This document shows, piece by piece, positions 1,056 to 25,491 of a stretch of DNA of 36,562 bases. The stretch is taken from positions 81,843-118,404 of the forward strand of contig JBBHKE010000026.1 of assembly GCA_037447655.1 (NCBI GenBank), read 5' to 3'. A program made the position numbers and the translations under genes. The notes under the pieces were generated by a model. It was not told the origin of the DNA. It made no database searches and saw nothing but the letters and a program-made list of their open reading frames with translations. The stretch is from Zygnema cylindricum (lineage: Eukaryota; Streptophyta; Zygnematophyceae; Zygnematales; Zygnemataceae). The stretch's first letter is position 1. Each line of letters starts with the position of its first letter.

Positions 1056-1951
1056 GTAAGATCTAATGAAATTTAACAACGCAAAATAATTTAAAAGACA
1101 AACCTAACAATTCTAAACTCCAAACACTGTAGGGTAAAGGAGAGCTTACCTACTTCTTTATCATCCATTGTTTCTCCATTTTGCTCTCACTACAATTGCC
1201 TTTTGTTGATCTCATTTGTTTGGATGTTCGAGGAGGGTTGGGGTAAAATAGAGGGATAGGGAGATAATTGGTTGTCAAAAGAGAAGAAAATACACAAAAA
1301 AGGGGGACAGAATGTCGTGACGTGAGTGGAGGGAGAAAAACTTCCAGTTAGAGGGGAGAGGTATTGGCAGGAGGGAGGCACACCGTAGTCACTATTTAGG
1401 GGGGGAGAGTGTGGTTATTACAAGGGAGGAAAAGAAGAGGGGAAAGTGGGAAGGAGAAAAGGGATACTGAGAAAGAAAGTGTGTTCGTTATAGGGGAAAG
1501 AAAAATTGTGGTTGTAGGTGGGGACGAGAGTGGAAGTAGCGAGATTAGGCAAGGCAATGAGCCGTTGTGAGGGAGAGAATGGCAATAAGATGAAGGAGAA
1601 TTTGGATCCAAAAAAAAATAGATGGGAGGAGAGGGTCACAATTAGAGGGGTTTGAGAAAGTCATAGTTAGAAAGAGATAAGCGGGGTGGAGGTTAGATGG
1701 CATTGAGGGAGAGGGAGAAGCCATGGGAGATAATTGGAGGGGAGGGAAATGGAAGAGTGCGGCGAAAGTGTGGCGACGGGAGGGGGCAGGGGACGTAGAA
1801 GAAGGATTGGGGGGTGGTTGGATGAAAGAGAGAAGAGGGAGGGGGAGGGAGAGGGAGAGGGTCTTATGGAGAAAACTAGATCGTTTATAAAAACGAAAAA
1901 GCCGAAGTAATGGAGAAACAAACAAAAATTAAAATGAGAGAGAGAGAGAGC

Positions 1952-1995
<44 letters not shown>

Positions 1996-4900
1996 AAAAG
2001 AGAAGGAGAAAGAGAGAGAGAAAGGGAGCGTGAGCGTGAAGGTGTTTTTGTGGTGTCATCTGGAGTTCTATTTTTGATACTCTTAGAGTAGTTTTTTTTT
2101 ATCTAAGGCTCACTCTTTCCCAATCCTTCCCCTTACCTTCCCTCTCCACCTCCCTCCCATGCTGCTCTCCTCCATTTCTTCCCTCGTCCTCACCCCTTGT
2201 TTATTAATTTTTCATTGTTTTCTTCACCTTCTCTATCCCTCTTTCTCCCTCTCCCCCCCTAATTATATCATTTTCAAGTTTTTTGAAGACAGTTGGATCT
2301 ATTTACGACCAGGATGAACCCCTCCTCTCCCTTTCCGCCTCTCCGTTTTTTCCCTTTTCTTTAGTCACTCTCTCCCTACCCTATTGTTTTTCGCCCCTCT
2401 CACTCTCTTTTCTCTCATTTTCCTTCTCCTCCCCCTCCCCTCCTTTTTTTCTTGTATTTTTTGAAGTAGTCATATTTGGAGCCCCCCAAACTATCTCCCC
2501 CCAACACCAGATAATTGTAACAGAAACCTTTCACCCCCCTTCACCACCATTTGAAAAAAAAAAAAAAAAATAATAATAATCGAAAAGATAAAAAAATATT
2601 GCATTTCTTTAACTTATGTTAAATATGTTCGACCCACTAGTAAACTTTATTGTTTGCAAATAACTTTTTCTTTTTTGAGAGGGAGAGCAAGAGAGAGAGG
2701 GGAGAGAGTGAGGGAAATAGCGAGAGGGAGGGAAATTGGGGGGTCTCCACTGAATCTCCCTCTCACATTTCCAACTTTACGACCTATTTAAATGTTTTTT
2801 CTAAATTCCATTTTCAAAAGTAAAGATAAAGTCATTTTTTGCATTTATTTTTATCTAATGTTGAGTGACTTTTTGACATTTTTTATTATGTTTGTTTTGT
2901 CTAGTGTCGTAAAAAACAAAAGGCTTCCCAAATGAACGTTTAACGGCTCTAGAGCAAAAAAATGAAAGTAGCAATAATGACTCTTGTCAACGTCTAAAAA
3001 GAAAGAGCCAAAATACTTTTTTTTCTTAAGAGAAAAGATGTAAGGACCATAAAAATATCCCTTTCTTTTCGTTTTCTTGGCACCAAACACCTCCCAAACA
3101 TTGTTAAACATGATCGAGAAAACTATATAATACGAGCTTATGCACTTCCCTATACCTCTTACATTTAATTTAAGAGTGTGAAAATCACAACATTGACAAA
3201 TATCACTAACTTTATTTTATTTTTATTGACGGATATTATGAACAGTATTATTTCGAACAACTATTTTATTGGTCCCATTGTAAAAGTCAACGACCATCCA
3301 TCATGTGAAGAATTAAATGCAAACTGCCTTTTTGCATTAAGTCTCCCATCCGAATGTGGATCCTCTAATCAACGCAGTCAAAACGATTGTGAAGCGTTTT
3401 GCAATGCGACCCAAGTCGGAGGGCCTTGTGGGGGGGACGGTATTTGCTCCACAATCACTTGGGCGACCTATCAATGTGACTGTAACCAAGGCTATACTGA
3501 TATAACAAGCAAATACACTTGCAAATGTAAGTTCTCTTGTGGCAATTATATCTACCAAAAAATGGACTCTTTTTCGAGGAAATTGAAAGTTATTCGAAGT
3601 TTATGTCTTTGTGGTCTCATGTCTCTCTCGCTTTAAATTATATATTGATAAATAAAATCAGTTTTTTTTTTGTTCTCTACTATTTAGGCATTATCATTTT
3701 CTCGCACAAATTTTGAATATTTCCGAGAGATTCTTGATTTTTGGCTCTGGCGCAAGTTATTGAAAAATTCCGATTATTAATTTGTTCGTGAACAATTGTG
3801 TTGACCAAAAAAAGGCTTTGACAAAGTTGTTGTTCCAACGTTAAATACATGTCTTTTATTTTCCAGTAATAGAATTACCACCTCCATTAAGATCACCACC
3901 CATTGGATCACCTCCTCCAGTGCCACCCCCTCGCCCACCTCCTCCACCGCCTACTTCACCACCGATAAGATCACCTCCTCCATCTCTATCAGCTCGCCCA
4001 CCTCCTACACCCTCTCCTTCACCACCGCTTAGATCACTTCTCCCCCCACCTCCACCTCTCCCTCTCCCTGTCCCTCCCGCTACTCCTCCCCCTCGCCCTC
4101 TCCCTCCCCCTCCCCCTCCCCCTCCCCCTCCTCCTCCCCCTCCCCCTCCCTCTCCCCCTCCACCTCTCCCTCCTCCCCCTCCCTCTCCCCCTCCTCCTCC
4201 CCCTCCCCCTCTCCCTCCCCCTCCCCCTCCCTCTCCCCCTTCCTCTTCCCCTCCCCCTCCCACTCCCCCTCCTTTTCCGCCTCCCTCTCCCCCACCACCT
4301 CCGTTTCCCCCTCCCCCTCTCCCTCCCCCTCCCCCTCCACCTCCACCTCCTCCTCCCCCTTCCCCTTCCCCTTCCTCTCTCCCTCCCTCTCCTCCTCCTT
4401 CACGCCCTCCACCACTGCTTAGATCACCTCCACCATTGCGCCCCCCTCGCCCTATCCCTCCACCCCTTTCACCGCCAATTAGATCACCTCCTCGATCACC
4501 ACCCCCACGCCCTCTTACTTCACCCCCTCGTTCACCACCTCTTAGATCACCTCGTCCCCCCCCCTCCCCCTCCCCCTCCTTCTCCCCCTCCCTCCCCTCC
4601 TCCCCCTCCCTCCCCTCCTCCTCCCTCTCTCCCACCTCCCTCTCCCCCTTCCGCTCCCCCTCTTTCTCCCCCTCCCCCTCCCTTTCCTTCCCCCCCCTCC
4701 CCCCCACCTCCCTCTCCGCCTCCTTCTCCCCCTCCCCCTCTTTCTCCTCTACCACCTCTCCGTTCACCTCCACCTTCAAAACTTTCTCTCCCACTCCCTT
4801 CATCTCGTCCACCACCCTTTCGTTCACCTCCTCCTTTCATATCCCCTCTCCCTCCTTCACCCCTTCCTCCACCACCCTTTCGTCCACCTCCTCCTTTAAA

Positions 4901-6268
4901 ATCTCCTCTCCCTCCTCGTTTATCCTTTCCACCTCCCCTTCGTTCACCTCCTCCTTCACTATTTCCACCCAACCCATCGCCTCCAAGTCCTCCACCCATA
5001 TCTGAAGGTGAGGCCCAAACAACAGTTAGAGTTTGCTAGAGTAGTTCAAATTAGATTCCTTGTTAACCATCTAACGTTGATATTTTAGCTTGTAACCACC
5101 AAATTGAGAAAATAAAGAAAATATGTTTCGCCAAAACTGGTTCATAAAAGTTACTAGGTGCTGCCAAATCATTTGTTTTCAGATTGTTGCAATTAGAAGG
5201 TCATTTTTGGCTGGTAGTTCTAAGAATTTTACAACATTATTTTTATGATTTCTAGAATTTGATTTAAAAGACTTGAATTGGTTTATTTTTTGTACTTTCC
5301 TGGTCACCTTTTGCAACAATGTGATGCATTTGAAACACAATGGAGAAATGAAACGTATTTTTTTTTAATGTAAGCCCAGATACACTATGTGCTTTTGTTT
5401 TAGACTTCTTTTTTGAATACCAACATCATTAAAATTCGAACTTTTTGTAATAATGTGATGCATCTTATACCCGATGGAGAAGTAATAAAAAATTGTACAC
5501 TTTAACAAGATACATTATGTGGTATGATTTTGTAAAAGCCTGATAAACAACCATCGACATAAAATTTGAAAATCTAGAAACCACGTTAAAAATCACAACC
5601 ATAATTTTTTTATTACAACGTAAATATATTCTCCTTTCTTTTACACATACAAAGAGATATTGATATTAAAACACAAATGTTGACAAAACAAAATACCGTT
5701 AGCATGATGTAACCTTGTCTATCGATCAATCACCAATAATAGGCGTAGATACGTAACAAATGGCTATATATAACGACCAACGTGACTTCCCCATTCTGCC
5801 CAGGTGGAAAACGGGCACTCTTCTCATTTTCCTTGCACCATAATGAGCGAATAAACTTGCCATTTTTCCCAAACAACCGAAGACTCACCTCATTATATTT
5901 TGCTAGTAAAGGTCTTGTTATGTTGGTTGAGGGACAAATTTGGACTTGCATTTGGATGATGAGCTGCCAACGGATGTTGTTGTTTATTATGAATAGGAGT
6001 CCATTTTACACTCTTGTTGTTTTCAAATATTATAATATTTAGAAACTTTTCTTTTCTTTTCTTGTACGAGTTACACTATGTGACATCCTAGTTCAGCTCT
6101 TCTCTTTGCTAAACTATTTATGTTACACGTGTCGATGTAATATGTATGCATATAAATTTATAAAAATATGTTTTATTTGCACTAATTTCAATTATATACA
6201 TATCTTGCTCACTTGTTTCAGATAAGAATATGAAGGTGCCGCTTTTGGGATGCATTCTTAATATCTAA
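984..6268 (+). CDS. Gene 1 (5' partial): LRR - EGF-like cap - Pro-rich (extensin/LRX-like) protein
   Basis: Four exons join in phase: 984-1055 (one LRR), 3246-3526 (end of LRR plus Cys-rich EGF-like module), 3867-5007 (Pro-rich) and a tentative last exon from 6222 to a TAA at 6266-6268. Intron phases are 2, 1 and 1. The LRR exon reads [20 protein letters not shown], the plant extracellular LRR consensus. The Cys-rich module closely matches that of gene 2 downstream, so the two are tandem paralogues with different C-termini. LRR joined to Ser-Pro(3-5) repeats is the layout of LRX (LRR-extensin) wall proteins of land plants, so a role in the extracellular matrix is inferred. The Pro-rich exon changes frame at a run of nine C (4556-4564). 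The N-terminus and signal peptide are outside the window. The last exon is the least certain part; reading through the donor at 5008 instead would stop at 5036-5038. Confidence 0.55.
1056..3245 (+). other. Long intron of gene 1 with purine and pyrimidine tracts
   Basis: No further LRR exon was seen. From about 1230 to 2045 the + strand is strongly purine-rich, including a GA microsatellite around 1934-1998. From about 2100 to 2545 it turns pyrimidine-rich, ending in a poly(A) run. A second GA-rich patch lies at about 2675-2740. ORFs here are low-complexity and not believed. Confidence 0.5.
1934..1998. repeat. (GA)n microsatellite
   Basis: Almost uninterrupted GAGAGA dinucleotides sit inside a longer purine-rich tract of about 0.8 kb. 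Confidence 0.85.
3246..3526 (+). CDS. Gene 1 exon: LRR end plus EGF-like Cys-rich cap
   Basis: The exon opens with an LRR-like [10 protein letters not shown] and then a Cys-rich module: SCEELNANC, an [11 protein letters not shown] segment, GPCGGDGIC, then YQCDCNQGY and a final Cys before the donor (gtaag at 3527). The Cys order and the CGG-G-C..C-C..GY pattern fit an EGF-like fold. Gene 2 exon 11701-12050 has the same arrangement (FCNATQ, ACGGHGVC, CLCDPGY), so this cap is a family feature. The acceptor is the cag at 3243-3245, which is pyrimidine-poor, so the exact start is less sure than the end. Confidence 0.65.
3867..5007 (+). CDS. Gene 1 exon: Pro-rich extensin-like domain with apparent frame change
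   Basis: The exon follows ttttccag and joins in phase 1 to the EGF-like exon. It is dominated by runs of Pro broken by Ser, with recurring [15 protein letters not shown] and SPPPP units typical of extensin/pherophorin-type cell-wall proteins. The frame open from the acceptor turns Ser-rich after about 4556 and stops at 5003-5005. The next frame, from about 4565, keeps the same motifs ([26 protein letters not shown]) and runs in phase to the gtgagg donor at 5008. One C too many in the nine-C run at 4556-4564 explains both facts. This may be a real mutation or a homopolymer sequencing error. Confidence 0.6.
5008..6221 (+). other. Intron of gene 1
   Basis: This is AT-rich sequence without convincing coding content. 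It contains a diverged tandem duplication (5312-5390 against 5447-5522) sharing aatgtgatgcat, atggagaa and gatacaYtatgtg blocks. The overlapping ORFs on both strands at 5730-6042 resemble nothing I know. Confidence 0.4.
5312..5522. repeat. Diverged tandem duplication, period about 133 bp
   Basis: The first copy starts near 5312 and the second near 5447. Both carry aatgtgatgcat, then an atggagaa block, then gatacaYtatgtg, in the same order and spacing. Confidence 0.55.
6222..6268 (+). CDS. Tentative last exon of gene 1
   Basis: After a good acceptor (ttgtttcag, ending 6221), the phase-1 reading gives a short tail, [13 protein letters not shown], then TAA at 6266. The phase matches the donor at 5008. 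A tail this short cannot be recognised by homology, so this rests on splice-site phase only. Confidence 0.35.
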
Positions 6269-6850: not shown

Positions 6851-6983
6851 GTCTCGTCCTCCTAGATTTGAAAGCTGCCATCTCAAGCGATCCAAACAGG
6901 TTTTTGTCAAGATGGAAAAATGGATCAAGCTTTTGTGGCTGGGATGGCATAGTGTGCAACAGTAGGTTGCAAGTGAAAAAAAT
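6851..6983 (+). CDS. Gene 2 exon: LRR N-terminal cap (LRRNT_2)
   Basis: It encodes LLDLKAAISSDPNRFLSRWK followed by SFCGWDGIVC. This is the plant LRR N-cap: an ALL..K helix, then W...(x)C.W.G..C with both cap cysteines. The acceptor is cag at 6848-6850 (phase 1) and the donor gtgag is at 6984 (phase 2). The N-cap normally follows a signal peptide directly, so only the leader exon should be missing. Confidence 0.8.
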
Positions 6984-9900
6984 GTGAGCATGTCAAGCTG
7001 ATTTTCTTAATCCTTAATCCTATTTTTTTTTCCTAGAGTGCTAGGTCCCAAAATAAATATAGTTGTGAACAATATAAGTAGCACGTGTGGCAACCATCAA
7101 AGCTATTTGAGTTTCTTTGTTTTAACACGCCATGATTCTGTAAACATGGCGTTATGTAAATAAGATATTGCCATTTTTAACTTGTGGATGTGCTTTTTCC
7201 TATTGCTAAGATTATGTTATCTAGGATTATAATGATAATGATGGGGAAAATTTCCTAATGTTTGTATAAAATTATAACAAAAAAAACATTTTACCTTTGA
7301 CGCAGTTTGTTGGTTGGAAAGGACCTAACCGGCACCATTTCCCCTTCTATAGGACTCCTCGCAAGCCTTCAAGAATTGTGAGGGCTTGATCTTCATCCGC
7401 ATGTCCCAAAATATCTGAATGACGACCATTTGTTGCGTATGGGAGCTTAAGTTTAGATGTGTGAAAGGTTATAGTGCACTTGATCCTTTCGCTCAGTTGG
7501 CACAAGGCCTACCAAAGTTATGGTTGTCTCGTTCATAGACACGTTTGTATGTAAAGAAGTGTACAGAAAATATTTGAATTTTGTGTTTGTTTGAAGTTTG
7601 ATTTCGTTGCGGGCGCTGGACATCTGACGGTCACAGCTTGAGATTTTTGGAAAACGAAAGTTATCCATTATCCGACGTTGGTGGAAAGTAAATTATTTAA
7701 ACTGCAAAAATCATCCTCGACAATAATCATGTTTGAAAATGTTCAATTCCATTGAAAAAATGTGCAGAGCTGATTAGAAGAATGAGCATATTTAAAGTAA
7801 GGGTAATTGAAAACGTAATTCATAGAAAATTTTCATCAGTCACACATCTTTCTCCAACAGATAAAGAAAAATTCGATTATACAGTGAGAAAAAAACAGGT
7901 AGTGAAGTGTGAAACTTTAGACTGCTAAGAAAGACAGCAATTACATAGCCTTCTTCTTTAGCCTCAATCAAATACCAATCATTTATCTACTTGAGCACTT
8001 CTCTGATGAATCGGTTTAGATCCATTTCATTTCATGACAAGCTTTTTGTGCTCAGACATAAGTAAGATTAAATGGAATATATTGGATTGCCGGGTACTGA
8101 AGTGTTGGCTTTCCTATAAATCTGAGTCTGAAGGCTAAGTCATGGAATTTCGTTTTTATGTCATGGCATGTTTGTTTTTATCAGGAACCTGGCAAACAAT
8201 CTTTTTATGGGGAGCATACCGTCTTCCATTGGAAACCTCAAATATCTTGAGAAGTTGTGAGACTCGTTCTTTTTGCTTGTTTTGACTTGCATTTTTGCAA
8301 ATTTCCACCGTTCGGAGGTGTTCGATGAATTGGAGAACTTGATATCTAATAGGACGCTGGATATAATTTGAGTTCTTCTTGGCTTTTAACACAATTACTT
8401 CTGGTCTCCTTTGGTTGTATATATGTACTTTTGAGCATTCAAAAATTATCAGCTTCTCTGAAATTTGCAATTTCGAAACTATTTTAAAACGCCACCTAAT
8501 CCCTTTTTGCCTCTTTTTATGGGTGAAATTCAGTTTCGTTGAGATGAAAAAAAAATACATTGTACAGAAATTCAGAATATTCCCACAGAAAAGAAAACGT
8601 TAATGTGTTTTTTTTTTAATTTACACTCCTTTTCTTTTTCTCTCGACCCCTTGTCCCATTTTTCCTCCATTTCCGCCTTCTTATTCTCCATACCTTTCCT
8701 TTTCCCTCCCTTCCCTCTTCGAGAAGTTTCACATCTTATAAAATTTCTTGGAATACATGTCCTAATAATATGGTCTCGTTTTCTAAACTACACTTGGGAG
8801 TATAGTTTAAAGTCCTGAAGAACTCAAATTTGACCTATAAATGTTTCATTTGTCTCTCCATTCGTTTCTAGAGATGAAAAGGATAACTATCATATCATTT
8901 TCATATTGATTTTATAAATTCAGAGTGTTTGGGGAAAATTTTGCTTTTTCTTTTTCTATTGGTGATATTGCGAATTTTTTTGTTGTCTGACCAAGTAATG
9001 TTCATGCGGATATATACCAGATTTTTTTTAGGAATGGTAAATGTCTTGATTTTTCCATACAAGTGATTTTTGTTCTATTTTCCGCCACAGTATGTCAGTG
9101 GTTCCATTCATTTTCTTGTTCCCCAAATTAAACGCCTTAAAAATCTGAACAGAATTTTAAAATCATGGCACGGATAGTGTTGATCCCCCCAAAGGTGACC
9201 GGACTGTTAAATTTCACCTACGACACAAAGCTATTATTCATATTATAAGATATATCTTATACCCATTCGGGCTTCAACCTCATAGAACTGTTGATACTAT
9301 TTGGTGTCTATCTATAAATGATGTCTTATTCGCACTCTTCTTCATGTGATTTAGTTTTTTGACGAGACATGCCAACCGGCATATGATTCACATTTGAATG
9401 CATGATTATTTTACAAATAAAGAGCCTCTTACAGGATGTCTCCCTCCTTTTTGTTGAAAACAAGATTTGTCACTCTTGCTGGCTATTTGTTTCTATCTAG
9501 CCTATTTTGAGAGCTACCCTGGAAGAAGTCCACAACTTGTGAGGAACGTTATGTCTTGGATTTCACCCGGAACTAACTTAAAACGCTCTTGTGTTTGGTT
9601 TTGCTGTGTCCTTTCAGAGATTTGTCAAAAAACCAATTGAATGGCAGCATTCCCTCATCCATTGGAAATTGCACAAGACTCCAAAGCTTGTGAGGTTTTT
9701 CTTTCCATAGGTTCAATTAATGCGTTTTTTTAGAATGACATTTTTCCATGAAGAAGTCGTATTGCTCTCCATGTTAAGCTTTTCAATGATGAATACACTA
9801 GCAACCATCATATTGACATATGATTTGATATATCTATCTGGACGAAATGGAAACATACCGTCTAAATAAACCTTGCGTTATTATTATTTCCTCGTGAAAC

Positions 9901-12900
9901 CCACAATTTTGGGAATCTTTGTTGCTGCTAATGTACTAAGCTGGGATTTTGCAGGATGTTATCGTCCAATCAACTGACTGGTGCCATTCCTACAAGCATT
10001 GGAAGTCTTTTTACCCTCGAAGAATTGTGAGTGTTTCATAGTCACAATGATCACTCGTCGCAGATCTATTGCTTAAGTGTTTTGTATGTACAGCACTTCA
10101 TTATCTGAGCTATCAAATGCAAAGGGCAGCCTTCCCTTTTACTTTTGCATTTCACAAGCTTCTTCCAGTTTTAACCTATGTCTCCAAGAACCATCTACTA
10201 ATTTGAGGACTATTTCCGGGATTTCCTAGTCAAAAACTAGTTTTTTTGTCTTTTACTATCCGATTTTTTTATATGTTGGTGATCTTTTCCGCTTTCATAT
10301 TTCTATGACGTAAGGCATTGGTTAATTCATTCAACTAAACATTGTATCATTTTGAACTAGATGTGTAATGCACAAGTGGTGGAGGTCTATAAGCGAGGCA
10401 GAGAAATATATGTCCCCTTGTCCCTTGAAGATAATAAATCCCCTACGATGCTACAGGCTAACAAGTGTTGAGTTTGTCTAGCATATGAGTAATTACAAAT
10501 TTATTTTAGTGTGTTATAAACTATCAAATTTTTCTTTTGGGACGTGTGAATGCTGCAGGTTCCTGGATAGGAATAGACTTGAAAGCATCCCAGAAAGTGT
10601 TGCAAATTTGCGAAGTCTTCGACAACTGTATGTTCTCTCGTTAACACCAATCAATTTTCTTTTTCAAATAAGGTCCATGTAAACGGTATTATCCTGCTTA
10701 CGCATTTGGACCATGATAATTAAAATTCGTGCACATCGATTTACGCATCACGTGGCGTGAATGAGCATGAAAAATTACATATTTTACTGAGGGTCATGTG
10801 ATCATGATTCATTCAGACGAAATACATTTAAACGACAGGAACATCAATTAAGCAATGGCCTCTCACGTCTCTTAGCTACTATAATGACCAGGGTGCAAGT
10901 TTTTTCCTCGTTATGAGTTTGTGCAAAGTGCTTCTTATCTGCATACATATTCAGCACGAAATTCATCCATCATTAGAAGGTTCCTTTCTGTAGGTAAATA
11001 AAATCCCCATAATTTTGAACTAGCATCTTTTCTCCTTTCCCTCAAACATGCCAAAAAGAGAACAACGGACTGCTCTCGGGTTTTGGATCACCAATTTATA
11101 ATTTACAAGTTAGTCATAGTGATGGAGTCCTTGTCGGTTTTTCGCCCAAACAGCACACACTCCCATGCTTGTTGGACGAGGGTACAAATGTCCCCTACTT
11201 TTGTGTGTTTTGTCTTTTGTGTGTTCTGTCTTTTGTGGAAACATTCGTGAGTAACGTATTCCGAATGGGTTTCTTTTGCACTGTTGGAATATCACATGGG
11301 TGTGACAGGTACCTCTACAAGAATCAATTCAGAGGAAATATACCTGCGTCGCTGGCAGATATACGCACTCTCTCCAATTTGTTCGTTTCCCCGCCCCTTT
11401 GAAACACTCCAGGAATGCAATGTCATTTCATTCATACCCAATATGCATCTCTTTAACAACACATATTCCCCACTCCGTCTTTGAAAAGCATTTACTACTT
11501 CAAGATAGTGCGTCTGAAATTGTTACTTTGTTCCGTAATGTGGCCTCAATTGCCATACCCTACCCAACATGTCAGATTAAAATCATGATATGGAGTCTTC
11601 AGGTAGCTGCTAATCACTTGTTTGTAAAATTTTCTTCATCTTGGCTTAACATTGATTTCTTTATCTCTTTCCCTAAAAGTGTTTTTTTGTTTTTTTTCAG
11701 GAAATTAAACGAAAACTTTTTCACAGGCATAGTAGTTCTCCACTTTACCACGCTTTTAAAGCCCGGAGTGGACCTCTCTTACAATTACTTGTCCGGAACG
11801 CCATCAATCACCATCAATGGAATGCAAGCGTGTGATGAAATCTCTTTGGGGTCGAATTGCTTTGATTTGGGAAACCCCCAGTTCGTTTGCCAGAAGGAAG
11901 ACCAAAAAGACCCAATGGAATGTCTTAGCTTTTGCAATGCTACTCAGCCAATGGGAGCGTGTGGAGGCCATGGAGTTTGTGACAGTAACTCTACTTGCTT
12001 ATGTGATCCAGGATACAATAACAATGAGAATTCAGTCACCTGCAGCTTTGGTAAGATATGTCTTCATCACTTTTCCCACCTTCCTTTTGATTTTTTTTTC
12101 TGTTGAACTTATTTTTTTGTGAAACGGTTCCCCTTTTCTCTACTTTACTCTTTCCACACTCTCGTTAGCATTGTAAAATGTATATATTGTACATTCCATT
12201 CCAACACCTTCACCTTTCACACCTTACCTTTTCCCCAATTTCTCTCATCTACCTTCCGTTTTCTCTTTAATACATCTGTATATAGTATATTCCTTTCATC
12301 TCCCTTCCATTTTCAAATACAATTGTATTGGTGAATTTTAAAATAGAGGAATTTGGACAAAATATTCTGCAGATTGCCCGTACTCCTATCAATTGAATAC
12401 ATGCAGGTGAGGCACGATAATGAAGTCTTTGGCCGAAGGAAAACATGGACTTTGATTTTGAGCTTTGCGTATTTTGTATTTTTGTATAAATTGATGTTTC
12501 CCAAGATAAACATGCCTATAATACTTTAGCTGCATGTATGCATCCAATTTTATTGTAAAATATTCAGCAATTCATTCTTTTTCGGGATGTAGAAAATTGC
12601 GGTCTTATATTTGTTGTCCATACCCTCCAAAAAAGATTAGAAAAAATATTTCTACTTGTAATCAAGTTTCTACTTTCAACCACATTTCTAATTGTTAACC
12701 TGCGTGTTTTATGTGTTTGGATGTAGGAAACCGAGGCCTTGGATATATTGACTCTCAATCATCTAGGCCATCAAAGAAAAATAAGTACTTCCGCTACTTG
12801 AGTGCAGGATATTTGTACCTGAATGAGCTGACGACTCCTTCTTGGATGGTTGCGACCAGCTGGAAATGGGTCAATGCAAAGGCGTTGCAAGCGATCAGAG

Positions 12901-15900
12901 ACCAGGAAACGTGCAGTATGTCAATACAGATTGGGAATGCTAGTCTTATTCGCATTCAAGTTAGCCTGTTTGTTGTGCAGGAGTTTGCAGACCCATAGCT
13001 GTTTGAGTTTGTAAATTGCATAAACAGAGTGTGTACATACACAGTGTGTACATACCAGTATGCAATCATAAAATATGATCTTAAATCTTGTCGTCTTTCT
13101 TTCAAATCTTATACAATTGTCAGTAAAGCATGCTACAACAACAATATCATTAGGATGCTTCTTAAGTAATTACCTGTTGAAAATTCACTTATTACTTTTG
13201 CAAGTGACATGTTAAAAATTCCGATTTTCTTAATGCGGATGTTTACCATTGTACAGTCTAGATCTATTGGCTAATCAAAAATGCGTCCTCGTAGACGCTG
13301 AATAGTAAGAATTTGTACGGCTTGTGTATATAGTGCAAAATTTAAGAGAAAGTGGATTGTTCTGATTTTTAAAATACCACCCTAGATTACTGATTAACTT
13401 TATGAAAGTAATACTTGATTTGGCACATATACCCGCGTGCAATTCATTTTACGTTTGCTGCTAGCTGAAGACTTACAGTTGGTTATTGTGGAAACCTCAG
13501 TTTATTCAACAAGGAAAAATTAGTCTGAACCTATGATCCCAAATTCTGCTTCCCTTTCACAGTTTATTATATATATGCATACATATTTATATGAATAGAT
13601 ATATTTATATATGTACATATTTATGTAATCCAGCTTTCAACGCTCGAGAAAAACCACCAAGTCTAGGTGACTGACAATATGCTTGAAAACACCACAGTTT
13701 ATTTATCAAAAAGTATACAGATTGACTAATTATATAAACGACCTGGGGTTTCTAACCATAGTCCCTTCATCTCTACCTTTTTTCCTCTTTCATTCATACA
13801 GATACTTGCTGGGTGTTTTCTACAACTTCAGCCATTGAAAGTGCTTTTTTCATTGCAAATGCTGGCCAAGTACCAGTTCCGAGTATCCCAGAAGAACAGT
13901 TTCTTGTTTGTTCCGGACAAAACAAAAGTTGTGGCGATGGTGGCTCGCCAGGAGACGCCCTTGATTATGCTGCTACCAACAGCCTCATTTTCAAGGAAGC
14001 TTATTTTGGTCCGAACAGTTGCGCTGGTCCTAAGGTATGATATCCTTTGCAGTGATACGTTTTAAGGATAGAATCATGGTGATAGTTTTTTCTAATATGT
14101 CTGTTTGTTTACTGATCATCAAAGGCACTAAAACATTAGAAAACCGACCAAAAAATATAATCATAATGTGATTACTGAGGTACTATTGCGCTAATCAGAT
14201 AATTGTCTTGACTTCAAGGTGTAATGGCGGTTTGAGTTAGAAAATTTAAGGGTACTTGTTTGTTCTCTAGTAACTTTTAGAGGTTCAAGAAATATCTATC
14301 TATAGGTTGATGTAACTCATTTTACAAACATTAGAATACAACTTACGCCAAGTTTGGATGACAATTCCATCCCTGATTTTTGGAACAAAAGAATGGCCAC
14401 AAAAAAATGTGAATAGAATAGAAAAATAGAAAGGTAAAAAAAAACCATGGAACAGTTCCCTATTCAACATATTGTTCCCAGAAAACTTATAAATTATAAA
14501 GAAATGACACACAACTATATTTTTTATGTGAGAGCACAAACATGAGCTTTATCTGCCTCAGTTGTTCGTCAACTTTCATATGGGAAGAATTATCTCTCTC
14601 ATATTGCCAGCTGATATAACTGTTCTGGAACAGGTTCCGCCAGTCCCTATAACATCTTTACCTGAAAATAGAAAGAAATTATAGTTCTTTATTTAGCATA
14701 TAAAAGGATATGTCTTTGAATGTGTAGCCCAAAGAAGGTACGTTAATTCCGCCAAATTATTGAAATTTTTGACTTTGGCCCTGAATTGAGGCTGCTTCAT
14801 TAAAAAGGAATGGTTTATGTCTAAATTATTTTTTCTGAAAATAAATTTTTGCCATGTATAGGTTGAAGAATCACCTTTCCATTTTTCCCACAAATTTACA
14901 GCAGTGAATTCGATGACTGGCAACAAACTAAAGACATGGGCAATTTAATGGTTGGTTTGAAAAAGGCTGATAAAAAACGATTTTTTTTTTTTTTGTTATT
15001 TCTGGGTGAAAAATGTGAAAGATTTGATTCAACGCTTATGGATTCATTTGCAAGTAATCGAATTGCGTGTAAGTAGCTTTTAAGGGCATTAGCATTTACT
15101 TGTCAAAAAAATATGAAAATCTCGTACTTAGGATGAATTATCATGTTGATTTGTTGCAGCTCACCAGCAGCACACGTATTTTCTCTTTTGAGGAAGTTCA
15201 GTCCTACGGTTGGATTGGTCTCCTTTTAGCGCTCCAACAGCAACCCGCTATTGTCAATATTGAAGGAAGCAGTTATAGTTTCAAAAACTACAAAAATGTG
15301 AGTTTGTGAATTAGTCTCTAATGTTATTGATTTACTATAAAGAACATAATAACAATATGTTTGAATTTCTCAGCATCATTTGCAACAAGAGAAGCATATT
15401 GTAACAGGTGAATATGCTCCATTGAGTTCACATTCTTCATCTAAGAGCAAAATTTGAATGTATTTTGAAGGATTCGTGGCATTTGGTAACCAATACTTGG
15501 AACCAAGCAAGGTCTTTCGTAGGGGATGCGGTCTTTTAGATGTGCCTAAGGATTTTTATTTGATTGCTTCTTTTGACTTTGTGTGACTTCATATTTATAT
15601 TTCTTAGATGAAAAAAAATCGTGAGAATAATAATTAGATTGGGTCATGGCACTAGGCAATGCAATGAATGTTTAAAAATCGATCTGCTTAATGTTGTGAA
15701 GGGGATATTTGATAATGATGACTGCTTCTCAAGCGGTGTGGACCATAGTGTGGTCGTTGTCGGTTACGACCTCACATCTTCACCACCTTGTTGGGTCCTT
15801 CGCAACTCATGGGGAACGAATTGGGGAGAAAATGGCTACATGCGAATCAAAATTACTGGAGGACTTGGAATCTGTGGTATAAATAGCCTTCCGGCACTTG

Positions 15901-18900
15901 TGCCGATAATACAATCCCCATGTAAGCGTTCGTCGTTGCGCTCTGTTCTTGCACATCATTGAAAAGTGTAGATTATGGCCATTTTGGCTTATATTTTAGC
16001 CTTGGTAACATCTCATCTAACACCTACAATTACGCAGCTCATTTTTTTTTTACTCATTATGCGTTTAGTCATGTGCGTTGTGATAAAGGCTGATTTACTT
16101 TTGAAAGAAAGAACCATGTTTTTTCTTAGTTTTTCATGCACCCTATTTGTCGAGACGTTTCTCTTTAACATGTACAAGAGAGAGAGCGTATTTTAGTTAA
16201 TAGACTATTTCTAGAGTGCCTTTAACAACCATGTGGACGTACCAAAACCACAAAGTTTGCAAAATTACTAATCTACCCTCCGTTGCAATACCGATCCTAT
16301 TCCAAACTAGTGAATGCATACCAAAAAAAAAATCTTCTCCTTAGCAAATATAGCAAAGTTGCATTGCAAATCAGCTTCATAGACTCATGTCGTGCTAGGG
16401 AATGGTGGGGAATGTCGGAAAATGGTGTACCTTTCCAGCAAATGATCCTTGCAACACCGTCAACTTTGCCAAGAAAGTTCTAAAGACTGAGTATGGCCCG
16501 GGACGCTCCAACCCATGTGGCAATGGTGTATGCATCCCAGTGGGGAGCACCAACCTTTGCCAATGTACGGATACATTTGTGGCTGTCAACAATACGGACG
16601 GCTCGCAGACGTGTGCTCCAGGTGCAAAATCGAGCAACTCTCTTACTCTTAGTGGCTTTGAACTGCATAATGCTGGTATGTTTTGTATTGAGTTTAAGCT
16701 AATTTTTTTCTAAGTTTGATACTCGTTATGGCCTTGAACACGTGGCAGCTTCCCCATGTACCTTCAGTCCGCAAAATCCATGTGGCGTGGGTACCTGCTT
16801 GGACACTTCTTTTCCACCCGGAACTTATGTGTGTATTTGCCCGCCTGGCTATGTGCTGGACTATCCAAGTGGCAAGCTCACTTGCGTAGCAGGTAAAAAT
16901 CTAGGAGATATACATACTAAATGCGGACATAAAACTCCCTTGCAAATTGGGATCCATATTGTTGCTTAATTATTATATTTAATCTCATGGCACGTTTGCT
17001 GACTTGAGTGACAATGATAGTTATGGATGGAGTGCACGATGATGGCCAGATGGTACCAATTTAGCAGGTAAAAATCTAGGAGATATACATACTAAATGTG
17101 GACATAAAACTACCTTTGCAAATCGGGATCCATATTGTTGCTTAATAATTCTATTTAATTCTATGGCACATTTGCAAACATGAGTGACAATGATAGTTAT
17201 GAATGGACTGCACGATGGTGGCCAGATGGTACCACTGGGACTGGCCTGAAGTACTTTGTGGTGCCAAGTGGAGTAAACGTGACCTGTTATGACATTTATC
17301 TCATTTACGGCATCAACAAGGATGTGTTTTTGGCACAGAATCAGGTGATGTTCAGCCAATGATTGAGATAGTATACTGCGCCATGATTGAGATCTTTACC
17401 ACCATACATTCACTTCTTGAGTAAATTTTCCGATTATTGACTATATTGAGATGTATTCGGTGCTAATCACGTTGGCTTCATGTTGTATAAAGGAAGTTCG
17501 GTATTTTCTTTCCTTCGATCATGATCGTTGTCGAATTATTTCCTGATGTAATGCCAGTATACTCAATTTTATGACAGGGTATTGACTGCTCTATTCCACT
17601 GCTTCCTAGCACGGCTGTCAATGTGACAACCTCCAACAACTGTTCTCTCCTCTATGCCGTCAATGAGGTTTCGACACACTTTCCCCTCCCTATTAAAATT
17701 ACGTCAATGGAAAAAAAATGAGATTTTTTTTTTTTTACTTTTTCAGTATACTGTGCTGTCGAGTAGAGCTTGCAGGTCATTAAGTATTCTACTTTTTTAT
17801 ACTTTATGATAATGCCTCGGGCTAAGTATTCTATTGCATGAATTGAATCGTATGATAGTCTGGAATGCTAATTCTTTTGGTTTGTTTCAGGGTGACACGT
17901 GTGCCACAATCGCCAGTATGTTTGAGATCGATTCGCTTTCAGGACCAGGTTCTCCTAATGTTGATTTGGACTGCTTTCAACTGAGGCCGTTTCAGCAGGT
18001 GCGTCTTTCCGTTACGGAAAAAGGCCTTTCAAATATTTATAAACTGGCAGCTCAAAAAAAATTGTCAACCAAAAAAAACCTTTTCTTTCAGGGGACTCTT
18101 TCAAAATAGTTTGTCGTAACAGAATTATGTATTCTTTGTTTCTTCAAGCGACACATGCCAGAAAAATCTGAGTTGAAGTCATCTGTCTTTTGTCGAAACA
18201 TGCATTTGTAGTTCCCTATTTTAATTTTGTTTTCACACCTGCAAAACTCATCCAATTCCATGATTTTTCCCAAATTTCATTTCAAATACGAGAGGTTTCG
18301 CAATAAACATTACTATTAGCAAAGGCTGTATAATGTTAATGTGCGCTAGTTTGTTGATTTTTATACGAGTTCGAATTGACATGAATTCGCAATGGTCTAT
18401 AAAAGGCAATGTTTACACATTTTTTGCGGCTATGAAAAGCCACAAAGTTTACATTTCTGAGGTGTCCCAGTCCAGTCACACTAATTTTGGCCGACGGTGT
18501 AACAATGTCAGGTTTGCATAGAAAGGGGGCCACTCCCCTCCCTGGGACCTTGCACGTGGCCGTACGATGTGAAACAGGACGAATCGTGTCTCTCCATTAT
18601 CAGCAGCCGATTGGATGGCGATATTCGTCTCTTCTATGCCCTAAATCCTGGAATTTACTGCGGCCGTCTTCTCTTTGTTTCTAGCGGAACCCAGAACATT
18701 GGACAACAGGTGTGTTTTCTTGACTTGGGCTGCTTAATTGTGAATATATGCTGAACCTCAAGTTTTTTTTGTGGTTCTTGAGGGTGAATATAGAGAAGGT
18801 TCATGGGTACAGATAGATTACGTGCTTAGTCTTGTCCTTCTTAACTACATGTTGTGAAGCATGGTGTACCTTCATGTTTACAGAAACCTTATATTTACTG

Positions 18901-20306
18901 TTTCATTTACGCATCCTTGCTATGGAACTTCATTTGCTTTAACTGAAACAAATTAAGTCGTTTTCGTAAACTAAGAACTTTTAAATCAAGGTTTTTACAT
19001 CTAAACAAGTCTTGAAAAAAAAAATTGTGTCATTATTTTCATTAAACTAAGCATATTAGAAGCAATTAGACAAGCATTCAAAGCCTAAAATCAGGCACTC
19101 TGTACTTGATCGTGGGTATTACATTAAAACGTATAGCTTTGTTTTACACCGTATTAACTCATCCTATTTCATACGAGTTCCTAGAATGATGATGCATGTA
19201 ATTTATTTCTTACCGTTGAATACCTGGCTCTATATTTCATAACTAATTTCGTGGTAAATAGAACAGCAATAATTGATTTAAGTCTCATTTTTGTCATTGC
19301 GAAGGTCAATGTTTAGTAGAATATTGCGACTTGCTTTCCATGAATACAACATTATGCCCTTTCAAAATATATGATTTTTTTTAATCAAAAAAATCCTTTT
19401 AGCTGCAAACCACTTGAAAAAGGTATACTTAACTCCGCTAGAGGCTCCACAGCCCTCATACATTTATGATTTTGCCGGTTATTTTAGAGTCTGGAATCGG
19501 TTGAAACAAACAAGCACATGCTTGAGGAATTGGAGGATTATATGGAGTAATAGAAGAGATAGAAAAAAATTGTAATTTCAGTTTTATATTAATGTGAGAA
19601 TTTTTTGAAATGTCTCTTCAATGTTGATTTAATGTTTTATAATCTGAATGCTTCTGCTGCTATAAGTGCTTGTAAGTGAGCTCAGAGTTTATTATCGATC
19701 CTTTCAGTTGTTGTAGCCCTAAGGCTCCTACTTCTAAATGGTTGTTTGAAGGTTGCTCTTCTATCACTGTATGAATACTAGAGATCTTACAGCCAGAGAT
19801 CTTACAGCCAGGCTTAGGCACCAAGACATGGGGTCATTTTAATGAATTTATTCACAAGTGTTCCAAGTACGTGTTGCGATTATTACTTCTTATGTGATGT
19901 ATCTCAATCGTGGAAAAGAGTATTAACAATGTACCATTTGATACAAAAAAAAAAAAAAAGTTTTACATATTATTTTTGTCTATCCCAACTCATGAAGGTA
20001 CCTGATCTAATATTCAACTACCTTTATTCGACCAGTAATGTTTTGTTAACCATATGCTTAACAACAACTATGCAATTGCAGGTTTGTCTTGCTGCAGATG
20101 ATATGGGAGCCAACTGGGCTGGATGTCCAGGCGGAAGCACATATACTTTGATGACTTCTGACTCTTGCACCAGCCTGTCGAAATGTTTTACAAAAAAAGA
20201 AACGTTTAAAATTCTGAACAAGTTTGCTTGCACAGCAGCTGCACTTCGAAAAGTGCGGGTGACTGGCAAACGAATTTGCATTCCAAATTCCAGCAAGTGC
20301 AAATGA
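6851..20306 (+). CDS. Gene 2: LRR - EGF-like - papain-like cysteine protease - 2x EGF-like - 4x LysM protein
   Basis: Nineteen exons: 6851-6983, 7306-7377, 8185-8256, 9618-9689, 9955-10026, 10559-10627, 11309-11380, 11701-12050, 12727-12915, 13802-14034, 15160-15297, 15702-15921, 16439-16675, 16749-16892, 17226-17344, 17578-17667, 17891-17998, 18512-18709 and 20082-20306. Every border is AG/GT and every phase matches. Together they leave one open frame of about 936 residues ending in TGA. Rough residue order in this partial protein: LRR N-cap 1-44; LRRs 45-225; EGF-like cap 225-304; protease 340-564; EGF-like 565-643 and 644-691; LysM modules 695-936. Protease residues are Gln about 364, Cys 370, His 506 and Asn 526. 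The LRR, EGF-like and LysM modules suggest a secreted matrix protein that binds a GlcNAc-type glycan and cuts protein. The first exon (signal peptide) was not found. The alternative is two adjacent genes split between 12050 and 12727, where an in-frame ATG at 12711 exists but no signal peptide follows it. Confidence 0.7.
7306..7377 (+). CDS. Gene 2 exon: LRR 1
   Basis: This is a 72-nt, phase-2/phase-2 exon between cgcag and gtgag. It encodes LVGKDLTGTISPSIGLLASL, a plant-type LRR (DLTGTISPSIG). Confidence 0.8.
8185..8256 (+). CDS. Gene 2 exon: LRR 2
   Basis: This is a 72-nt, phase-2/phase-2 exon between tcag and gtgag. It encodes [20 protein letters not shown], a textbook plant LRR. Confidence 0.82.
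9618..9689 (+). CDS. Gene 2 exon: LRR 3
   Basis: This is a 72-nt, phase-2/phase-2 exon between ctttcag and gtgag. It encodes [20 protein letters not shown]. Confidence 0.82.
9955..10026 (+). CDS. Gene 2 exon: LRR 4
   Basis: This is a 72-nt, phase-2/phase-2 exon between ttgcag and gtgag. It encodes MLSSNQLTGAIPTSIGSLFT. Confidence 0.82.
10559..10627 (+). CDS. Gene 2 exon: LRR 5 (23-residue variant)
   Basis: This exon is 69 nt, one codon shorter than its siblings but in the same phase, between ctgcag and gtatg. It encodes FLDRNRLESIPESVANLRSL. The Gly of the usual L-x-G-x-I-P segment is missing, giving the 23-residue class of LRR. Confidence 0.8.
11309..11380 (+). CDS. Gene 2 exon: LRR 6
   Basis: This is a 72-nt, phase-2/phase-2 exon following gacag. 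It encodes YLYKNQFRGNIPASLADIRT. The donor is gttcgt, weaker than the gtgag/gtaag of the other LRR exons. Confidence 0.78.
11701..12050 (+). CDS. Gene 2 exon: last LRRs and EGF-like Cys-rich cap
   Basis: After a strong acceptor (long T-run then cag), the exon encodes KLNENFFTGIVV, a second LRR-like VDLSYNYLSGTPSI, and then the cap: QACDEI, SNCFDLG, MECLSFCNATQ, ACGGHGVC, CLCDPGY and a final Cys before gtaag at 12051. The cap is paralogous to the gene 1 exon at 3246-3526, and both leave in phase 1. In gene 1 the next exon is Pro-rich; here it leads into the protease. The cap may close the LRR solenoid as well as being EGF-like. Confidence 0.78.
12051..12726 (+). other. Intron of gene 2 (LRR/EGF part to protease part)
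   Basis: Pyrimidine-rich at first, then AT-rich; nothing else is recognised. It starts with gtaag and ends in gatgtag. It is the junction that decides whether the LRR and protease halves are one gene. Confidence 0.5.
12727..12915 (+). CDS. Gene 2 exon: linker and start of protease domain
   Basis: This is a 63-residue exon, phase 1 at both ends. The first part (GLGYIDSQSSRPSKKN) is a Ser/Lys-rich linker. The end, SWKWVNAKALQAIRDQETC, corresponds to the start of mature papain-type enzymes (DWR..G.V.PV.DQ..C) and carries the Gln of the oxyanion hole. No ERFNIN/GNFD inhibitor prodomain (I29) is visible; YFRYLSAGYLYLNELTTPSW may be a short remnant at best. Confidence 0.72.
13802..14034 (+). CDS. 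Gene 2 exon: protease domain with catalytic Cys
   Basis: The exon begins by completing the active-site block Q-E-T-C-N-T-C-W-V-F-S, equivalent to papain Q19-x-x-C22-x-x-C25-W26. The catalytic Cys codon is 13807-13809. Downstream, PEEQFLVCSGQNKSC and GDGGSPGDALDYA match the family's SEQ-L-x-x-C and C-x-GG-x(4)-A-x-x-Y blocks. It ends in phase 0 at gtatga. Confidence 0.85.
15160..15297 (+). CDS. Gene 2 exon: protease domain, central part
   Basis: This is a 46-codon, phase-0 exon between ttgcag and gtgag. It contains LLLALQQQPAIVNIEGSSYS and FKNYKN, matching the papain-family L..AV..QPVSV.I......F..Y segment between the catalytic Cys and His. Confidence 0.82.
15702..15921 (+). CDS. Gene 2 exon: protease domain with catalytic His and Asn
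   Basis: It encodes GIFDNDDCFSSGVDHSVVVV, then GY, then CWVLRNSWGTNWGENGYMRI. The catalytic His codon is 15744-15746 (VDHSV) and Asn is 15804-15806 (RNSWG). The Cys-His distance is about 136 residues, against 134 in papain, so the domain is complete. It ends LGICGINSLPALVP, the usual C-terminal end of the fold. The acceptor (gtgaag) is pyrimidine-poor; it was chosen because it gives phase 0 and the family's Y..GI junction. Confidence 0.85.
16439..16675 (+). CDS. Gene 2 exon: EGF-like module 2
   Basis: Phase 1 at both ends, from ctttccag to gtatgt. It contains NDPCNTVNF, NPCGNGVC, NLCQCTD and QTC in the EGF-like Cys order, then a Ser-rich tail. A weaker donor at 16622 would drop the tail without changing phase. 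In plant granulin-type proteases a Cys-rich module also follows the protease; this one is EGF-like, not granulin. Confidence 0.75.
16749..16892 (+). CDS. Gene 2 exon: EGF-like module 3
   Basis: Phase 1 at both ends. It reads SPCTFSPQNPCGVGTCLDTS and later YVCICPPGYVLDYPSGKLTC. Six cysteines are in EGF order with the C-x-C-x-x-GY core. The donor is gtaaaa at 16893. Confidence 0.8.
16888..17237 (+). repeat. 175-bp tandem duplication across an exon edge
   Basis: The segment beginning tagcaggtaaaaatctagg recurs at an offset of 175 bp (16890 against 17065). Each copy runs from the last bases of the EGF exon through the intron to the start of the LysM1 exon (gatggtacca). Copy 1 carries a TGA where copy 2 has TGG in the would-be exon, so copy 1 has decayed or was never used. 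Confidence 0.85.
17226..17344 (+). CDS. Gene 2 exon: LysM 1, first part
   Basis: It encodes KYFVVPSGVNVTCYDIYLIY and then GINKDVFLAQNQ, a LysM start (Y-x-V-x-x-G-x-x-C-x-x-I). It is completed by the next exon (GIDCS...LLPSTAVNV). The acceptor at 17225 (ggccag) was chosen because it is the only nearby AG giving phase 1. The frame is also open back to about 17186, so the true start is uncertain. Confidence 0.7.
17578..17667 (+). CDS. Gene 2 exon: LysM 1 end and LysM 2 start
   Basis: This is a 30-codon, phase-0 exon. It closes LysM1 (GIDCSIPLLPSTAVNV) and opens LysM2 (NNCSLLYAVNE). The donor is gtttcg. Confidence 0.75.
17891..17998 (+). CDS. Gene 2 exon: LysM 2, main part
   Basis: This is a 36-codon, phase-0 exon after gtttcag. 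GDTCATIASMF is the most typical LysM core in the gene (V-x-x-GDTC-x-x-IA). It is followed by DLDCFQLRPFQQ, which joins V-C-I in the next exon to give the usual C..L.P.Q.VC ending. Confidence 0.82.
18512..18709 (+). CDS. Gene 2 exon: LysM 3
   Basis: This is a 66-codon, phase-0 exon between gtcag and gtgtg. It contains PCTWPYDVKQDESCLSIIS, then LFYALNPGIYCGRLLFV, a complete Cys-bracketed LysM. It begins VCIERG, completing LysM2, and ends GQQ, to be completed by VCL of the last exon. Confidence 0.82.
18710..20081 (+). other. Last and longest protease-half intron of gene 2
   Basis: AT-rich; it contains short direct repeats such as agagatcttacagcca twice near 19780-19810. No further LysM exon was found, and the flanking phases do not require one. 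Confidence 0.5.
20082..20306 (+). CDS. Gene 2 last exon: LysM 4 and stop
   Basis: Phase 0, after a strong acceptor (aattgcag). It encodes CPGGSTYTLMTSDSCTSLSK, then ILNKFACTAAALRKVRV and KRICIPNSSKCK, stop TGA 20304-20306. It is a diverged LysM keeping the four Cys positions. No AATAAA is seen in the following 200 bases. Confidence 0.8.
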   Translation, partial: VCLAADDMGANWAGCPGGSTYTLMTSDSCTSLSKCFTKKETFKILNKFACTAAALRKVRVTGKRICIPNSSKCK

Positions 20307-23218: not shown

Positions 23219-25491
23219 TAAATTACATTTGTAATAGAAGATTAACTTCGGTTTCTGGAGATAAGACGCCTGAAGAATTGTGGATGGGCAGGATTCCATC
23301 TGTTCTACATTTGAGGATTTAGGGAGGCCGAGTCACTTTCTACATCGAGAAAATATATCGAGCGGGAAAATTCAGTCCCAGATCTTGGACAGGTATTTTT
23401 GTTGGATATAGTCCAAATTCAAGTCAATACAGGATTTTCAATCCCGCTACTCGAACGGTTGTCGAATCAAGGAATGTGGAGTATCACGAAAATTTGGCGA
23501 AAGCAATGGAGTTTACAAAGGAAAAGGAAGAAAGTTTGGATTTTGAGGAAGAGAGCAATTTCGAGGAGTTCAAAATTAATGACGAGAGTGACGAAGAGGA
23601 GGATGAAGAAATTCCATTTAAAAAGAAAAAATCTGTTAAGGTTGGTAAGAGATCTGAATCCTCCTAATCAGATTGTGAAAGCTTGAAAATTGAGAATGCA
23701 ATTCAAAGTTCTAAGTCCAGTGAAAGATCCCTTAGCAAACAAAGAAATGAATGCAGTTTGCCATCTGTAAGTGAGAAGGATGAGAGAGATGATGTTGTTG
23801 AAGAAAAAGTTGTTGTTAGGAGAAGTAATCGAGTAAATAAAGGAAAGGCTCCTGAGAGATTAACTCTTCATATGAATGCTAAGGATAAGTCGGTTAATTT
23901 TATTTTAGATGCTAGGTTAAATGAGTTTCTTTTATAGCAATTAATGAGTGAGCCTCTGAAAGGGGATCTTAAGTCCTATTCGGAAACTTTAGCATCAAGT
24001 GATTGGAATGAAAAGTGGAAACCAACTTTTGAGAAAGAACTTAAGTCTATTATTGATAATGGAACATTTGAAGAAGTAGTTTTACCAGAGGGAAAAAAGG
24101 CTATTGATTGTAAATGGGTATTTAAGACTAAGACGGGTGCATCAGGTGAAATCATTAAATATAAGGCAAGATTAGTTGGTAAAGGTTTTCAGCAGAAAGA
24201 AGGTATAGATTATACAGAAACATATGCACCTGTGGTTAAGTTTGATAGTTTAAAGATGATTATTGCGATTGTTGCTGCTAAGAGAAAGCATATCCACCAA
24301 ATGGATGTGGAAACTGCTTTTCTAAATGGACAATTAAAAAAAGAAGTTTATATGAAGATTCCAGAAGGAGTTTCGGGCAAACCTGGACATGTGTGGAAGT
24401 TGAAGAAGTCCCTCTATGGACTTAAGAAAGCACCAAGGACTTGGTATACTCGTCTTCACAAAGTACTTTTTGATTTTGGTTTTGTTCGTACATTTTCAGA
24501 TTTAGGTGTTTATCTCAAAGGAGAAAGAGTTGATCAGATTATATTTAGTGTGTATGTTGATGATTTCATTATGATATCAGATAGTCTTGAAAGCAACCAG
24601 GAATTGAAATGTATTCTTAGTAAATTCTTCAAAGTTACAGACTTAGGAGAAGCTAGATACATTATTGGTATTGAAGTGATAAGAGATGAGTTTGGTTCCT
24701 TGAAACTTAGTTAGGAACAATATTGTAAGGAAGTCTTAGCTAGGTTTTCTATGTTGAATGTTAAGCCTTTAAGTACACCTTTGGATCGTAGAGTTCAGTT
24801 GAGTAAAGCAGAAAGTGAGCCAACAATTGATGTACCTTATAGAGAAGCAGTTGGTTGTTTAATGTAACTTAGTGTTGGAACTAGACCAGATATCTCAGCT
24901 GCTGTTGGTATTGTGAGTAAGTATTGTCAAGCACATAAGAAGTGACATAAGGAGAGTGTCAAAAGGATTTTTAGATATTTGGTTGGAACGTTAACTTATG
25001 GTTTAGTTTATAAGGCGGATTCAGAGTTAGATTGTTTTGGATATTGCGATTCTGATTGGGGTGGAGACTTCGACACGAGAAAGTCAACATCCGGTTACGC
25101 TTTCGTATTATCTGGAGGTGCGATTTCATGGAGTTCGAGACTTCAACCTACGGTGGAATTGAGTTTGACGGAGGCCGAATATATGGCGGCTTGCCATGCT
25201 ACCAAAGCTTCAATTTGGTTAAGAGAAATGTTAATTGAGTTGGGAATTATTATTCAATGTATGAAGTTGTTTTCAGATAGTATGTCTAGTATTGCATTGG
25301 CTAAGAATCCAGTGTTTCATAAGAGGACTAAGCATATTAGGATTCACTGGCATTTTGTGAGAGACTTAGTAAATGCTGGTGGGATTGAGTTCATTTTTGT
25401 ACCAACGGGCGAAGAAACAGCTGACATGTTAACTAAAGCTGTTATGCATGATGTCTTTGTGAGAGGAAGGCCTAAGTTAGGATTATTTTGA
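23219..25491 (+). pseudogene. copia pol fragment with six in-frame stops
   Basis: One frame holds the whole polyprotein remnant. Integrase C-terminal part: TPEELWMG, GKFSPRSWTGIFVGYSPNS. Next comes an acidic E/D-rich linker (about 23530-23640). Reverse transcriptase follows from about 23950: CKWVFKTK, YKARLVGKGFQQKEGIDY, QMDVETAFLNGQLKKEVYM, LKKSLYGLKKAPRTWY, YVDDF catalytic box. Last is RNase H: GYCDSDWGGD, KSTSGYAFVLSGG, SLTEAEYMA, KRTKHIRIHWHFVRD. Stops are TAG 23320 (in HLRI*GG, normally Phe), TAA 23665, TAG 23935, TAG 24712, TAA 24865 and TGA 24943 (normally Trp). No frameshift separates them. Catalytic Asp/Glu residues that can be seen are intact. It is non-functional as it stands. Confidence 0.85.

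Follow-up and report, generated by a model that had tools for sequence, protein, structure and literature searches.

A large gene family of Zygnema predicted to join a leucine-rich repeat head, a papain-like protease and LysM modules in one secreted chain

Results

An LRR–C1A–LysM protein encoded by one gene

We analysed a stretch of 36,562 nucleotides of the Zygnema cylindricum genome (contig JBBHKE010000026.1, positions 81,843 to 118,404; hereafter the window), in which a gene on the + strand (6851–20306) predicts a single chain composed of a leucine-rich repeat (LRR) N-cap, LRRs, an EGF-like cap, a papain-like (C1A) cysteine protease domain, two EGF-like modules and four LysM modules. Judged from its sequence, this gene is no lone curiosity but belongs to a large family within the genome that carries it; some of its relatives have an inserted legume-lectin domain or a proline-rich linker. 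We propose, with a probability of about 0.45, that the family represents secreted, soluble or wall-bound, glycan-docked recognition proteases of zygnematophytes, most likely used in defence outside the cell against bacteria or attackers with walls of chitin.

Splice sites were placed independently from the sequence and the exons were then joined, yielding a model of 19 exons with 2813 coding nt (936 codons and a stop), in which all 18 introns are GT–AG and no phase conflict occurs, in agreement with the exon count and length given in a preliminary description of this DNA. Randomly drawn intron pieces were open in a single frame in 2.5%, 1.2% and 0% of 5000 draws at lengths of 189, 225 and 350 nt, respectively. 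Pfam profiles matched the joined protein for LRRNT_2 (E=2.1 × 10−7), LRR_1 (6.5 × 10−16), Peptidase_C1 (PF00112, 1.4 × 10−40; residues 347–553, profile positions 3–215 of 220) and LysM (PF01476, 5 × 10−5, over the cut-off in the single stretch 756–774, which is LysM2); EGF scored slightly below its cut-off (3.8 × 10−4; 21.1 versus 21.5 bits), and the label ‘EGF-like' is a putative one based on the cysteine pattern and weak Pfam scores.

The same domain order as previously described was recovered by Pfam, by LysM profiles, in paralogs and in P0001, a 1178-residue EukProt protein with a Trinity label. P0001 corresponds to residues 40–930 of the window protein at 39% identity in a single alignment that runs in order from the LRRs to LysM4, and it crosses the junction between cap and protease in one open frame. 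The gene is known here from genomic sequence alone and the intron separating cap and protease has an ordinary length (676 nt), which might suggest that two or more adjacent genes were wrongly joined; this explanation is scarcely credible, however, as P0001 and predicted proteins from Closterium and from entries labelled ‘Mesen1' (presumably Mesotaenium endlicherianum) all span the junction, and the order is repeated in all ten paralogous stretches described below. A split into two genes at 12050–12727, the outcome that the preliminary description had allowed for, is thus made unlikely, and the joined protein is, on these comparisons, the predicted product of one gene, the model of which lacks the 5′ end.

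The first exon of the model (6851–6983, +; Pfam) encodes the LRRNT_2-like N-cap and begins in codon phase 1, with an acceptor conserved in the paralogs C20b and C20c; because of this starting phase, an upstream exon with the start codon must be missing from the model. Six single-repeat LRR exons in phase 2 follow on the same strand, as do all exons below (7306–7377, 8185–8256, 9618–9689, 9955–10026, 10559–10627 and 11309–11380; Pfam and module profiles), and the last LRR shares an exon with the EGF-like cap (C..FCNATQ..GACGGHGVC; 11701–12050; Pfam and module profiles). The protease is distributed over four exons: the first (12727–12915) contains a family-specific YFRYxSAG stretch and the start of the protease through the oxyanion Gln, the second (13802–14034) was found by alignment to carry the catalytic Cys (codon 13807–13809), the third (15160–15297) was recognized by module profiles, and the fourth (15702–15921) holds the catalytic His (codon 15744–15746) and Asn (codon 15804–15806), again by alignment. 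EGF-like modules 1 (16439–16675; module profiles) and 2 (16749–16892; Pfam and module profiles) precede LysM1 (17226–17667; profiles), which occupies two exons (17226–17344 and 17578–17667), the second of which also starts LysM2. The remaining exons encode LysM2 (17891–17998; module profiles and Pfam, where it passes the cut-off), LysM3 (18512–18709; profiles) and LysM4 with the stop codon (20082–20306; profiles).

A YTVLSS mini-exon at ∼17751 was rejected since it breaks the frame; without it, 17578–17667 joins 17891–17998 to give a proper LysM2 (YAVNEGDTC). A 176-bp tandem duplication (16887–17234; 2.0 copies, 91% matches) lies over the intron before LysM1 and doubles its splice sites, and 17050–17067 within it could act as an 18-nt phase-neutral extra exon.

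Relatives in other zygnematophytes and in the literature

Homology searches with the window protein retrieved relatives in Closterium and Mesen1 entries, so that the kinship with other charophytes was borne out, as was the recurrence of the domain order, raised as a check by the preliminary description. Among 91 matches, which from P0052 on are mostly ordinary or bacterial C1A proteins matching the protease part only, Pfam LRR, Peptidase_C1 and LysM occurred together in six (P0001, P0011, P0012, P0023, P0026 and P0027), and LRR, legume lectin and Peptidase_C1 in five (P0004, P0007, P0010, P0014 and P0021). The Mesen1 proteins P0003 and P0005 have a proline-rich SPPPPKK linker between cap and protease. 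The family architecture accordingly reads LRR, EGF-like cap, optional lectin or proline-rich insert, C1A, two EGF-like modules and LysMs, with the LRR part absent from many members, at least as predicted. Searching with the LRR end and cap only (residues 187–303) retrieved none of 124 candidates at E 0.01.

Fusions of C1A with LysM are known, having been reported in a plant and algal set according to the available text of the source, which further states that combinations of C1A with lectin were not retained in vascular plants (PMC6362431). The family resembles these LysM–C1A combinations of algae and non-vascular plants in the joining of the two domains, and differs, as far as that text goes, by the LRR N-cap, the LRRs, the EGF-like cap, the two EGF-like modules, the four LysMs and the large copy number. 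The LRR head, whose novelty had been suggested earlier, and the family expansion therefore stand as the new part, whereas the combination of C1A and LysM had been published. The preliminary description had placed LysM–cysteine protease fusions in volvocine algae; no volvocine-named protein was among the 8000 best candidates scored, which neither confirms nor excludes such fusions. No description of the LRR-headed C1A–LysM form was found in the open-licence literature searched: the accessible portions of PMC11289646, PMC10380794, PMC10318531, PMC7941945 and PMC11096116 do not describe such a protein, the last reporting 26 Lectin_legB architectures and LRR enrichment, and in those of PMC10945595 the relevant terms occur separately and no such protein appears.

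The family within the Zygnema genome

A Peptidase_C1 search of the 352.8-Mb assembly (2689 contigs) gave 303 candidates, 150 of which were scored; the resulting counts therefore set a minimum for the candidates and a maximum for the members of the family. The range of the family's last protease exon was seen in 132 of the 150 scored rows, on 108 contigs (92 rows by a narrower range), while 13 of the remaining rows are N-terminal halves and in 5 the match stops at profile position 219 or 220. All 21 loci examined, that is the window, ten loci and ten more, either best-scoring or hand-picked, belong to the LRR–C1A–LysM family; in a 20-locus subset of the Peptidase_C1 search, 16 were in the family and L001, L002, L003 and L017 outside it, L001 overlapping L002.

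Ten paralogous stretches were scanned with module profiles built from the window and homologs. All ten contained matches to LRR, cap, C1A, EGF1, EGF2 and LysM on a single strand and in the same order, three of them with missing modules. The contig of C1470 ends before LysM3, C20b has no LysM4 in the stretch scanned, and C1414 gave a single weak LRR match (12.6 bits). Weak matches on the opposite strand occur as well, and C1662b includes LRR matches of a divergent neighbour. Haplotypes may have raised the apparent copy number; the paralog pairs compared differ at 0.15–0.47 synonymous substitutions per site (dS).

Two of the stretches showed features of their own. C1052 (the joined stretch of L021 and L022) is without a C1b match, has a broken C1a frame and is probably a pseudogene. 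C20c (the joined stretch of L033 and L034) has two consecutive LysM4 exons, at 13725 and 15936, that are near-identical (dS 0.026; nonsynonymous, dN 0.047) and might reflect duplication or alternative use of the last exon.

Catalytic residues of the protease

Alignment to ervatamin-C revealed that the catalytic Gln, Cys, His and Asn (QCHN) of the window protein are all intact; with its whole mature domain and these residues, the predicted protein is a member of the papain family C1A by sequence. An I29 propeptide (PF08246), a trait of cathepsin L-like proenzymes, was found in none of five proteins scanned (the window protein, P0001, P0003, P0011 and P0004), all of which extend to the N-terminal side of this domain. 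A tree was built from 55 of 62 candidate homologs, seven being dropped as too short or unmatched and the alignment of P0031 being doubtful. The same-genome rows all group in a single clade, to which P0001 is sister (98/91), and ten of ten keep Gln, Cys, His and Asn.

Across the 55 homologs the active-site position is Cys in 28, Ser in 21, a gap in 3 and another letter in 3. The Ser rows, which include P0002, P0006, P0007, P0010, P0013, P0015 and P0016, are found in two places: four lectin-type rows with weak support (89/79), and 17 rows of a well-supported 19-row clade with no LRR listed; in 13 of these 17 the oxyanion Gln is also replaced by Glu. Ser requires three changes on the tree, a number that need not equal that of independent losses of Cys. 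We predict that these Ser-bearing relatives are not cysteine proteases of the ordinary kind, and the replacement in many Closterium relatives suggests a use beyond ordinary proteolysis.

Constraint along the reading frame

The ratio dN/dS was calculated by the Nei–Gojobori method on exon pieces bounded by hidden Markov model matches, not by a likelihood model. Comparison of the window gene, C20b and C20c gave ratios of 0.31–0.51 for the N-cap and LRRs, 0.22–0.35 for the cap, 0.11–0.16 for C1A, 0.07–0.12 for the EGF modules and 0.31–0.33 for LysM1–3, with bootstrap limits below 1 for each of these blocks; the two LysM4 exons of C20c compared with that of the window gave 1.14 and 1.10. The share of bootstraps in which the LRR ratio was not above that of C1A was 0.002, 0.046 and 0.000. 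Five paralogs of another clade ranged from 0.06 to 0.65 per module, with LysM2 highest; in this analysis the group A row for LysM4 cannot be relied on, as the scanned stretch of C20b contains no LysM4 match. Nearly the whole reading frame is constrained, the catalytic centre being conserved and the ends less so, and positive selection is not shown.

Less constrained recognition ends are common in mating proteins, and relatives are numerous in strains of Closterium, a model for conjugation. Both would fit a mating or cell-recognition factor at conjugation, in which LRR and lectin-like modules recognize the partner and the protease dissolves the wall; we consider this role quite improbable, since the copy number in one genome is above the usual need of mating systems as generally known; a connection with mating genes was neither sought nor seen.

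LysM and LRR modules compared with solved structures

LysM1, LysM3 and LysM4 were not detected by Pfam in the joined protein. Profiles built for them from the window and relatives matched solved LysM chains of Chitinase A (5bum and 4pxv, which we take to be from a fern and a horsetail) with best E-values of 3.5 × 10−7, 1.1 × 10−8 and 3.7 × 10−8, respectively, and the LysM4 profile also matched fungal Ecp6 (4b8v; 1.9 × 10−4). The family itself is without a chitinase and has its LysMs behind the protease. An AlphaFold model of P0001 displayed four beta-alpha-alpha-beta units in the LysM region, at a mean predicted local distance difference test (pLDDT) score of only 68.6. We infer that the LysMs would dock on polymers of N-acetylglucosamine (GlcNAc). 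Recognition, protease and glycan-binding-type modules in one chain, as given in the preliminary description, are seen in the Pfam and LysM profile matches.

A fold search with P0001 indicated that its LRR part resembles plant receptor ectodomains, the other parts being barely covered by the search. In comparison with the LRR receptors RGFR1, PEPR1, MIK2 and RXEG1, the EGF-like cap and protease replace the transmembrane segment and kinase. The intact protease residues and the LysM tail would also suit an exoenzyme for digestion or scavenging, docked on dead particles that bear chitin or peptidoglycan, but a receptor-like LRR head has no evident purpose in bulk digestion, and such a role appears very improbable.

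The 5′ end, secretion and the upstream neighbour

No start-codon or signal-peptide exon was accepted at 5.0–6.85 kb. A strict search for signal-peptide exons gave no candidates in the window, C20b or C20c, and a relaxed search gave three weak ones in the window (5123, 6398 and 6663) and another in C20c (1286), but nothing in C20b; all were rejected as none is common to the copies. The N-terminus of P0001 is hydrophobic. The highest 19-residue hydropathy of the joined protein is 1.48 overall and 1.09 in the last 120 residues; by hydropathy only, it has no C-terminal transmembrane segment of the kind that characterizes LRR receptor-like proteins, and no anchor-like hydrophobic stretch was present in the last 120 residues of any of the four proteins tested. 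The hydrophobic N-terminus of P0001 and the absence of C-terminal anchor-like stretches suggest that the family proteins are secreted.

Another gene or remnant lies upstream (988–5039), with one LRR match (988–1056), an EGF-like cap (3319–3528) and a long proline-rich stretch ending at 5037–5039. The proline-rich reading shifts frame near 4550 at a C run and may be broken or reflect an assembly slip. A cap with a proline-rich stretch is also present upstream of C20c. The proline-rich stretch (∼3866–5039) was rejected as a 5′ part of the gene, because its counterpart in C20c runs two more codons to a stop. LRR-extensins are land-plant proteins, and the upstream neighbour, although not the gene in question, likewise joins an LRR-cap remnant to a proline-rich stretch.

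A putative role in extracellular defence

Microbe sensing and defence in the algal relatives of land plants are poorly known, and this large, constrained, secreted-looking family offers a concrete candidate for a layer of defence or wall sensing outside the cell, with its plant-receptor-type LRR head, active-looking papain domain and LysMs of the chitinase type. In the defence role that we propose, the LysM tail would hold the protein on GlcNAc polymers, either parasite chitin or glycans of wall or peptidoglycan. A partner, protein or peptide, would be selected by the LRR head together with its EGF-like cap, and would be cut by the intervening papain domain or else keep that domain in check. 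Defence is the most likely use given the many copies and a conserved catalytic centre flanked by recognition ends under weaker constraint.

Alternatively, the protein may be a protease remodelling wall or matrix, tethered by LysM and LRR to the alga's own matrix and trimming proline-rich glycoproteins in growth, division or spore release. The SPPPPKK linker of P0003 and P0005 and the cap joined to a proline-rich exon in the upstream neighbour of both the window gene and C20c are consistent with this possible though doubtful account, and the M11 wall protease of Chlamydomonas, in the available text of PMC6362431, is an algal precedent. A housekeeping enzyme, however, would hardly call for such a number of copies differing in their LRR sets, and the LysM type matches the LysMs of chitinases. 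Nor is chitin known to be a major wall polymer in these algae.

A more specific, improbable version of the defence reading is a single-chain guard, in which the LRR head would monitor the papain domain fused to it, or the partner held by that domain, while the LysM tail docks on attacker chitin. It is drawn by analogy, as a one-chain version of the tomato Cf-2 resistance system; Cf-2, the LRR partner of Rcr3, is membrane-bound. According to the accessible text of PMC5014320, the papain-like protease Rcr3 is the co-receptor with which this system detects microbial protease inhibitors. There the two parts are separate proteins, whereas here both would be in one chain together with LysMs and without a transmembrane-like stretch.

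Other elements in the window

Downstream of the gene, a broken remnant of a Ty1/copia-type element extends over 23323–25491, with matches to SH3_retrovirus and RVT_2 at 23323–24711 and no Pfam match at 24946–25488. A tandem array of a 26-bp unit (∼27.6 copies) occupies 27320–28044, and repeats of 62–64 bp are located at 32396–32527 and 33195–33423.

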